Below, piece by piece: positions 20,877 to 26,856 of a stretch of DNA of 64,000 nucleotides. A program made the translations under genes and the position numbers. Source of the DNA: Arenibacter nanhaiticus (GTDB taxonomy: Bacteria; Bacteroidota; Bacteroidia; Flavobacteriales; Flavobacteriaceae); NCBI RefSeq assembly GCF_900141935.1, contig NZ_FQYX01000002.1, positions 1 through 64,000 on the forward strand. Direction: 5' to 3'. The first letter of the stretch is position 1. Every line of letters starts with the position of its first letter. The notes beneath the pieces are model-generated. The model searched no databases and was not told where the DNA came from. It saw nothing but the letters and a program-made list of their open reading frames with translations.

Positions 20877-21116
20877 ATGAAAACGATGACCTGCAAAGAA
20901 TTAGGTGGCTGCTGTGACAAAAAGCTTCATGCCGATACTTTCGAGGAAATAGCCGAGTTAAGCAAGCAGCATGGCATAGAAATGTTCCGTTTGGGAGATA
21001 AAAAGCACCTCGAGGCCATGAAAAAAATGCGAAAATTAATGACAACGGATGAAAAAATGAAAACACGGCTGCAACTTAAGAAAAAGGCATTTGATGCTTT
21101 GCCCGAAGTTGAGTAG
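20877..21116 (+). CDS. DUF1059-like small protein
   Basis: This 79-residue protein opens with MKTMTCKELGGCCDKKLHA, close to the start of small flavobacterial DUF1059-type proteins (cysteines at 6, 12 and 13, and His18, may bind metal). The rest is helical and charged (TFEEIAELSKQHGIEMF). No signal peptide is present, so it is cytoplasmic. Function is unknown. It stands alone with no close neighbours on its strand. Confidence 0.75.
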   Translation: MKTMTCKELGGCCDKKLHADTFEEIAELSKQHGIEMFRLGDKKHLEAMKKMRKLMTTDEKMKTRLQLKKKAFDALPEVE

Positions 21117-25982: not shown

Positions 25983-26060
25983 TTTCTAAAAAAAAACGAG
26001 AAATTTTGTATCTTTTTAAGTAACATCCAGTCTCCTTTATGAACGAAAAAATTTTATGCT

Positions 26061-26174
26061 ATGAATACCTGTATATGTACAAATTGTGAATGCACAAAAT
26101 GTAATTGTGTAAATTGTAAGGATAATGATTGCAAGTGCACTAAATGTGAATGCAGCAAATGTGAATGTTGTTAA
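26061..26174 (+). CDS. Metallothionein-like cysteine-rich peptide (37 residues)
   Basis: ATG at 26061 to TAA at 26172-26174 encodes 37 residues, 14 of them Cys (positions 4, 6, 9, 11, 14, 16, 19, 24, 26, 29, 31, 34, 36, 37). The spacing repeats CxCxxC: first half CICTNCECTKCNCVNC, second half CKCTKCECSKCECC, joined by KDND. No aromatic residue or His is present. Such density and regular CxC spacing is the hallmark of metallothioneins, which bind Zn, Cu or Cd as thiolate clusters in the cytoplasm. No signal peptide is present. A hairpin terminator follows 5 bases after the stop, and a SigZ-like sigma factor with a Cys-rich tail follows. It resembles no specific family that I can name. Confidence 0.75.
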   Translation: MNTCICTNCECTKCNCVNCKDNDCKCTKCECSKCECC

Positions 26175-26179
26175 AAAAG

Positions 26180-26210
26180 AGGTTGGTCTTTTGGCCAACC
26201 TTAAATTTTA
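26180..26210 (+). terminator. Terminator after the metallothionein-like gene
   Basis: AGGTTGGTC (26180-26188) and GGCCAACCT (26193-26201) form a 9-bp stem with one T-G pair and a TTTT loop, followed by TAAATTTTA. The T tract is weak, but the position 5 bases past the stop supports it and supports the small gene. Confidence 0.65.
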
Positions 26211-26223
26211 TAATATGAAATGA

Positions 26224-26328
26224 GCATGACGGCGAACTGGTCGTAAATATGAATATAGAAACGCGAATTACATGCTTGTACTGAACGCAGCCGAAGTATG
26301 ACCGTTAAAAAACAACAAGTATCTACAA
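26224..26328 (+). repeat. Leader repeat, copy before the SigZ-like gene
   Basis: This copy begins GCATGACGGCGAACTGGTCG, has GCGAATTACATGCTTGTACT, then hairpin arms CATGCTT (26271-26277) and AAGTATG (26294-26300) around CTGAACGCAGCC, then ATGACCGTTAAAAAACAACA, and ends at the ATG at 26329. It is closely similar to the leaders at 23028-23134 and 54138-54230. Confidence 0.85.
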
Positions 26329-26856
26329 ATGAAAATTGACACGATCACCATATGGAATACCTACAATAGCCAGCTTTATTTTTTTATTCTAAAAAAGGTA
26401 AAAAACAAGGATTCCGTTGATGAAATTCTTCAAAATTCCTTTCTGAAAATTCACCAAAACATTGAACAACTAAAAAACCCGGAGAAGGTAAAAGCCTGGA
26501 CTTATCAAATTGTTAGAAATGAAATCGCAAATCATTTTAAGGACTCCACAGATACAAGCATCAGTTTAAATCAAGATCTCTTAAAAGATGCTGAAAACCA
26601 TCCGAAATTTTGTTGTTTTGATAAATTCATAGCCAATTTACCTTTAGAATATAAAGAGGTCATTGATATGGTTTTTATAAAAGGAAAGAAACAAATTGAG
26701 GTTGCTGAATTGCTAAAAATTAGTTTACCGAATGTAAAAGCGAGAATTAGACGCGGAAAATTGATTCTAAAAAAGAATTTTAACGAGTGTTGTAAATTTG
26801 AAATTAATAAGGAAGGGAAACTTGTAGGAGAAGAAAACTGTGCAAAATGCAACTAA
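26329..26856 (+). CDS. sigZ: SigZ-type ECF RNA polymerase sigma factor with Cys-rich tail
   Basis: This 175-residue protein has an N-terminal sigma-2 region (ITIWNTYNSQLYFFILKKVK, then VDEILQNSFLKIHQNIEQLK with the region 2.4 stretch VKAWTYQIVRNEIANHF) and a C-terminal sigma-4 helix-turn-helix (KKQIEVAELLKISLPNVKAR near residues 124-143). The tail ends with a CC pair and a CAKC motif, as in other SigZ-like proteins, which suggests metal or redox sensing without a separate anti-sigma factor. No anti-sigma gene is adjacent. The start codon directly abuts the leader repeat, and the metallothionein-like gene lies 154 bases upstream. The regulon is unknown. Confidence 0.85.
   Translation: MKIDTITIWNTYNSQLYFFILKKVKNKDSVDEILQNSFLKIHQNIEQLKNPEKVKAWTYQIVRNEIANHFKDSTDTSISLNQDLLKDAENHPKFCCFDKFIANLPLEYKEVIDMVFIKGKKQIEVAELLKISLPNVKARIRRGKLILKKNFNECCKFEINKEGKLVGEENCAKCN

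Follow-up and report, generated by a model that had tools for sequence, protein, structure and literature searches.

The window is a 64,000-nucleotide stretch of the Arenibacter nanhaiticus genome. Its forward strand carries a short operon: a promoter-like element, the gene for a 37-residue peptide (here MT-A), a terminator-like RNA hairpin, and the gene for a SigZ-like sigma factor. The sequence-only reading had treated the peptide gene as solitary. The peptide stands, but its partner gene, the conserved promoter and the conserved hairpin had been missed. The MT-A gene comes first in a conserved pair, ordered promoter, peptide, covarying hairpin, sigma; this is a new kind of pairing.

The peptide and its relatives

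The MT-A gene (26061-26174, forward strand) encodes MNTCICTNCECTKCNCVNCKDNDCKCTKCECSKCECC, 37 residues followed by a stop codon. Fourteen of these residues are Cys, arranged as seven Cys, a KDND hinge, and seven Cys, with C-x-C-x-x spacing. Translation confirms the frame, the two-lobed layout and the regular Cys rhythm that had been proposed for it. His is absent, and no signal peptide is evident by eye. The sequence characteristics expected of a metallothionein are all present: very high Cys content; CxC and CxxC motifs; few or no aromatic residues; and small size. The earlier label, metallothionein-like, is well supported by the sequence, and metallothionein function is likely.

The Cys-richness of this ORF is not due to chance, because its Cys fraction is 0.38, compared with 0.13 for the runner-up among ATG-started ORFs of at least 20 codons in the window, and because no ORF of 20-60 codons had more than 7 Cys in 40 first-order Markov resamples made from the window. 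The earlier remark that the ORF is too short for standard gene callers needs qualifying: Prodigal accepts genes down to 90 bases, a minimum that the 114-base ORF exceeds.

Might the element be untranslated, a chance ORF or one that acts only as RNA? Its short length would suit this idea, as would the one sub-threshold match from an Rfam search (MicX, on the opposite strand, at 17 bits against a gathering score of 75). However, the reading frame is identical across 29 sequences, and the 29 distinct coding sequences are under purifying selection (pooled pN/pS 0.21), with pN of 0 at Cys codons where pS is saturated. The probability of an untranslated element is thereby close to nil; the MT-A ORF is real.

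The sequence-only reading had named one outcome as damaging, namely that relatives would not keep the Cys pattern. Instead, the start Met and all 14 Cys are kept in 29 of 29 aligned sequences (the window and 28 relatives), as is the strict C-x-C-x-x-C spacing. At the codon level, all 406 Cys positions in the 29 distinct coding sequences remain Cys, through 259 TGT and 147 TGC codons.

Full-length relatives occur in 15 of 18 genus genomes and in 16 members of a 299-genome family draw, the window's own genome being counted in both; a further locus (L121), added later by way of its sigma gene, brings the family count to 17 of 299. The closest named relative, from Arenibacter sp. 6A1, is 97% identical, and many others are also from Arenibacter. 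A scan of an 84,980-species collection with one conserved pattern returned 52 loci, a lower bound because the pattern is strict. The loci come from flavobacteria along with Roseivirga, Fulvivirga, Portibacter, Pedobacter, Brumimicrobium, and Profundicola; wherever a lineage is given, it is Bacteroidota. A set of 52 distinct MT-A peptides has a Cys fraction of 0.37, two His in total, and no Phe, Trp or Tyr.

No Pfam-A or NCBIfam family matched MT-A up to an E-value of 1 by hmmscan, a program whose filters discard most weak matches, and a profile search of the PDB gave no match up to an E-value of 10. Two McbG-like PDB matches (E 0.48 and 0.99) are attributable to chance. The claim that the peptide matches no metallothionein family is thus borne out in Pfam, NCBIfam and PDB sequence searches. 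MT-A represents a genuine and conserved gene family that none of the family libraries recognizes. Elsewhere in the window, a 79-residue ORF at 20877-21116 (forward strand), which starts MKTMTCKELGGCCDKKLHADTFEEIAELSKQHG, likewise has no counterpart in Pfam or NCBIfam up to an E-value of 1.

Origin from a mobile element was considered and rejected: relatives of MT-A were found neither among 72,556 plasmids (which also lack relatives of the 11-Cys peptide described below) nor among 50,697 phages, and the 116 pattern matches in viral contigs include no MT-A relative.

The sigma factor, promoter and hairpin

The sigma gene (26329-26856, forward strand) encodes 175 residues. The protein contains only sigma-70 regions 2 and 4 (PF04542 and PF08281, both above cut-off), the domain content of an ECF sigma factor. 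The SigZ model, TIGR02959, is among the best-scoring sigma models (127.4 bits, E 4.7e-37), although this score lies below the equivalog cut-off of 168.65, so that by NCBI's rule the protein is related to SigZ without being a member. An AlphaFold model (pLDDT 79.5, pTM 0.42) has two confident helical domains, poorly placed relative to each other, and its best fold matches are ECF sigma factors such as SigW, SigH, SigL, SigE, and CnrH.

Six of its cysteines are of note: the linker contains Cys95-Cys96, and the carboxyl-terminal tail has Cys154-Cys155...Cys171-x-x-Cys174. All but the last are invariant in 28 aligned sigma sequences, and Cys174 is present in 27, the final tail Cys being absent from Ulvibacter. 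These 28 sequences were not chosen by their tails and so provide the basis for tail invariance; the alignment used for the structure model, picked with the CC...CxxC pattern, is unsuitable for that purpose. The tail is modelled at low confidence, with a short beta hairpin separating the CC pair from the CxxC pair, and the model gives no proof of a metal site.

Peptide and sigma genes travel together. A sigma gene for about 175 residues follows the peptide gene on the same strand in 28 of the first 29 loci. Within the genus, the two genes share their distribution exactly: 15 of the 18 genomes (the window's own included) have both, and three have neither. Among the 299 family genomes, 17 close sigma genes stand apart (E < 1e-67), and 16 of them have the peptide upstream. 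Selection by the peptide alone gave the same picture, with a sigma gene adjoining in 47 of 52 loci (46 plus L087, from Ulvibacter). Inspected by eye in 29 loci, the outer neighbours vary between genera; the pair is constant.

The exceptions are few. The close sigma gene that lacks the peptide, L120 (genome G242), is preceded, by eye, by what looks like the 3' part of a tRNA and by the end of an ORF resembling GIY-YIG nucleases; the arrangement suggests a rearrangement at a tRNA. The five peptide loci without an adjoining sigma gene comprise three from Robertkochia, one from Robiginitalea and one from a metagenome-assembled genome (L057), whose contig ends 42 bases before the peptide so that the promoter region is not visible. 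The Robertkochia loci (L073, L082, and L088; 3001-3141) keep the peptide without sigma gene or promoter pattern, and their peptides carry a ten-residue carboxyl-terminal extension. Short repeats are abundant by eye in the DNA around the L088 peptide.

The promoter-like element, TGTATC-N17-GTCTCC, lies at 26007-26035 (forward strand), upstream of the peptide gene. The starts of GTATC and GTCTMC lie 22 bases apart in 25 of the 28 sigma-linked loci; at the GTCTMC position the others have ATCTAC (two loci) or GTCACC (one). This spacing stays fixed while the distance from promoter to start codon ranges from 24 to 33. The pattern TGTATC-N17-GTCTMC matches the window's genome once, at this operon, and a reversed-pattern control matches nowhere. 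Across the 18 genus genomes, 15 matches lie at the peptide and eight elsewhere, the latter about as many as for the reversed control (seven), and no wider regulon was found there. Together, the single match and the background-level remainder fit a sigma factor with a single target, its own operon.

Presence of the element also tracks that of the sigma gene. It is present in 44 of 47 peptide-selected loci with sigma, and in none of the four examinable loci without. By one regular expression, which leaves the remaining loci unmatched, TGTATC is found in 45 of 56 MT-A loci and TGCATC in 27 of 36 loci for a second peptide, MT-B (see below), with no swaps. Control of the peptide gene by the sigma factor is likely.

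The hairpin (26179-26202, forward strand) begins at the fifth base past the MT-A stop codon and has a fold z-score of -4.97. The sequence-only reading had placed it correctly but had taken it to end a solitary gene; it is instead intercistronic, preceding the sigma gene. In an alignment of 36 distinct sequences, 94.9% of cells are paired, and 27 cells show double changes against a mean of 6.3 for shuffled alignments, none of 500 shuffles reaching as high. Seven of the nine pairs have changed on both sides. The alignment draws on 38 of 46 named sigma-linked loci and the window; L059, L060, L070, L071, L075, L085, L091, and L098 were left out for very short or long gaps or as a near copy. The hairpin is not universal, since the gap between the genes is only 10-19 bases in L060, L075, L085, and L091. 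Fold z-scores below -2 were obtained for 35 of 56 MT-A and 31 of 36 MT-B loci, and the T-tract appears weak by eye in several. The structure may act as a partial terminator that keeps sigma low; its location 3' of the peptide gene suggests that more peptide is made than sigma.

From this arrangement we infer that the sigma factor reads the promoter and senses metal through its cysteines, that the peptide binds metal, and that the hairpin attenuates transcription. These four functions suggest a two-gene metal-response module, in which a Cys-only metallothionein family is driven by a cysteine-sensing sigma factor, and we give this reading a probability of roughly 0.7. An ion of a thiophilic metal or metalloid would probably bind to the linker and tail cysteines and turn the sigma factor on. 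Active sigma would direct RNA polymerase to the one promoter upstream of the peptide gene. The hairpin would stop most transcripts, leaving peptide in excess over sigma, while read-through would supply slightly more sigma and hence positive autoregulation. MT-A, with its two seven-Cys lobes, would bind the metal as a thiolate cluster; as free metal fell, sigma would lose its ligand and the module would switch off. Metal sensing, argued from analogy with the sigma factors compared below, is plausible.

Essential-metal homeostasis is a different prospect: the peptide might store Cu or Zn, or deliver it to a metalloenzyme, and be induced when the metal is plentiful rather than when it is toxic. 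Metallothioneins are known to store Cu(I) or Zn(II), and by eye no efflux pump is generally linked to the pair. Distribution argues against such a role, which we consider unlikely: the peptide is patchily distributed, in 17 of the 299 genomes from the family and 15 of the 18 from the genus, and patchiness points to a stress response rather than to housekeeping.

Related sigma factors and their neighbours

The family draw yielded 80 sigma places: the 17 close relatives, 35 in a second clade, and 28 more distant. The second clade has its own peptide, the distinct 11-Cys MT-B (mostly 33-34 residues), upstream in 34 of 35 loci. No outer relative has a Cys-rich ORF upstream, and one (L153) has such an ORF downstream. 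A sigma-selected set of 136 loci (L105-L240), reduced to 121 by counting identical sigma proteins once, comprises 56 with a Cys-rich mini-ORF, 19 in which an arsenic or mercury gene takes its place, and 46 with neither; some members of the "other Cys-rich" class, such as L227, are weak. Away from sigma, the 168 loci contain two Cys-rich mini-ORFs in 1,105,213 strand-bases, ORFs starting inside the sigma gene being excluded. The sigma gene of L152 is interrupted by two in-frame stops, and its locus yielded no peptide.

On a quick tree made without the tail, in which long branches were joined (L166 with L232), most MT-A sigmas form one group (40 rows, SH-aLRT 99) and MT-B sigmas another (34 rows, SH-aLRT 92); the presence of a Cys-rich ORF requires 10 changes. 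The linker CC is found in 55 of 56 MT-A sigmas, and all 36 MT-B sigmas lack it while having at least one linker Cys (CxC falls outside this count). Linker cysteines alone do not distinguish the peptide-linked group, because 33 of the 46 "neither" loci also have one, compared with only three of the 19 arsenic or mercury loci. Nor does the tail alone predict a peptide, since CC...CxxC occurs in six of the 46 "neither" loci and six of the 19.

The pairing is open to a regulatory interpretation, in which the peptide would be mainly a metal-dependent anti-sigma factor, or a metal donor or acceptor that tunes sigma, with no bulk detoxification. Tight one-to-one linkage and the lack of a second conserved promoter site in the genus are what such a regulator would predict. 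It is nevertheless quite improbable: the hairpin suggests an excess of peptide over sigma, the type of peptide differs between the sigma clades, and Robertkochia keeps its peptide with no sigma gene adjoining.

SigZ-like proteins extend well beyond these clades, the SigZ model having some match in 371 of 395 genomes phylum-wide. Among 48 of the highest-scoring places (30 loci and 18 fetched), additional Cys-rich mini-ORFs lie upstream (L198, L206, and L217) or downstream (L199, L200, L201, and L207) of the sigma gene. That of L200, 43 residues rich in CNC repeats and located 600 bases after the sigma start, is possibly another type of metallothionein. Plasmids carry SigZ-like genes as well; of eight loci fetched, seven were kept as distinct (hosts Vibrio, Photobacterium, Priestia, Hymenobacter, and Rhodococcus), and in none of them does a Cys-rich mini-ORF adjoin sigma. 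A 54-residue ORF upstream of the Hymenobacter plasmid sigma was rejected as not Cys-rich.

What might the signal be? Sigma relatives without a metallothionein-like peptide lie beside genes for ArsM (NF008823), ArsI/CadI (NF041414), ACR3 (TIGR00832), and MerTP (NF033556), in loci that were selected for the similarity of their sigma and searched with four query types. Of ten neighbours scored, two of them from MT-A loci, nine exceed the cut-off for one of the four families. The exception, which falls below, is an arsenate-reductase-like ORF truncated where its locus ends. In two Zeaxanthinibacter species an ACR3 arsenite pump gene (441-445 bits) is directly upstream of the MT-A operon itself. 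Arsenite binds vicinal thiols. This affinity, together with the arsenic genes beside relatives, makes arsenite a candidate signal for the module. The arsenic-linked sigmas fall in other clades, so their metal may differ, and in the window the operon has no arsenic or mercury neighbour, the upstream gene encoding an SBF-like transporter. SigZ-like sigmas of L186, L187, and L189 have CC...CCCC tails, and the first two adjoin an arsenite methyltransferase gene; all three are candidate arsenite sensors.

Vicinal thiols also lend themselves to redox chemistry. The sigma factor might sense oxidants or electrophiles through its vicinal cysteines, with the peptide serving as a sacrificial thiol store, and both the CC pairs of linker and tail and the Cys-only peptide would suit such a buffer. 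So would the scarcity of the four arsenic and mercury gene types, present in just two of 103 mini-ORF loci. Metal clusters, however, need the strict C-x-C-x-x-C spacing kept in 29 peptides, and a thiol buffer does not; moreover, relatives of the sigma factor do adjoin arsenic and mercury genes. We regard a thiol buffer as a rather unlikely alternative to the metal-response module.

A broader generalization of that module has perhaps an even chance of being right. Cys-tailed SigZ-like sigmas would be general Bacteroidota sensors of metals or metalloids, possibly arsenite, with the sensor built in, and several clades would each have acquired as partner either arsenic genes or a metallothionein of their own, unrelated to the others or much diverged from them (14-Cys, 11-Cys, or others, upstream or downstream). 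If true, this would be a repeatedly reinvented sensor-plus-scavenger cassette; it would give a function to the poorly understood SigZ family, and imply many metallothioneins that no family model names.

Comparison with known systems

The metallothioneins BmtA, SmtA, and PmtA, whose Pfam family is PF02069, and MymT resemble MT-A in small size, CxC and CxxC motifs, and Cys-richness. MT-A nonetheless matches no BmtA/SmtA model in Pfam or NCBIfam, nor in the PDB profile search. Excerpts from a review (PMC12193353) describe His ligands beside Cys in the BmtA/SmtA family, unlike the His-free MT-A of the window, and state that nearly all studied bacterial metallothioneins contain His; they name no metallothionein from Bacteroidota. 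The known proteins are regulated by metal sensors such as SmtB, RicR, and AzuR, according to portions of three sources (PMC12193353, PMC10141476, PMC8790569), whereas a sigma factor is proposed for MT-A. One of these, as excerpted, treats MymT under RicR and CorE separately (PMC10141476).

Open-licence papers yielded no case of a sigma-controlled metallothionein, no link between SigZ and metallothioneins, and no confirmation of a yrpE-SigZ link in Bacillus subtilis. The B. subtilis SigZ is entered as 'ECF' without a function in a 2023 table, from the part of that source available (PMC10141391). If the metal-response module is real, it adds Cys-only metallothionein families in Bacteroidota that are controlled by a sigma factor rather than a repressor, and offers a testable function for SigZ-like sigmas. 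The peptide-sigma pairing is also a search tool for peptides that family models miss. With promoter, scavenger, and sensor within about 850 bases (26007-26856), the module would be handy for a metal biosensor or for bioremediation.

Sigma factors with on-board metal sensors have precedents. Excerpts from three papers report that tail cysteines of the ECF sigmas CorE, CorE2, and OrbS sense Cu, Cd/Zn, and Fe, respectively (PMC8999054, PMC3107203, PMC9023288). OrbS of Burkholderia cenocepacia (ECF243) carries a Cys metal sensor within the sigma factor, as proposed here, but as described in the excerpted text it is switched off by iron, has other Cys spacing, and controls siderophore genes (PMC9023288). 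CorE and CorE2 of Myxococcus xanthus belong to the former ECF44, now ECF238. CorE-like sigmas have no linked anti-sigma factor, and their Cys-rich carboxyl-terminal domain is essential for activity; the tail cysteines of the window sigma are conserved but differ in spacing: CC-x15-C-x2-C, compared with CC-x3-C-x2-C-x-C in CorE2 as given in the excerpt (PMC9023288). Its linker has CC at 95-96 rather than the CxC of CorE-like proteins, and its proposed target is a metallothionein-like peptide, unlike those of CorE and CorE2. By analogy, the best reading is that the window sigma would work like CorE while standing outside the CorE group.
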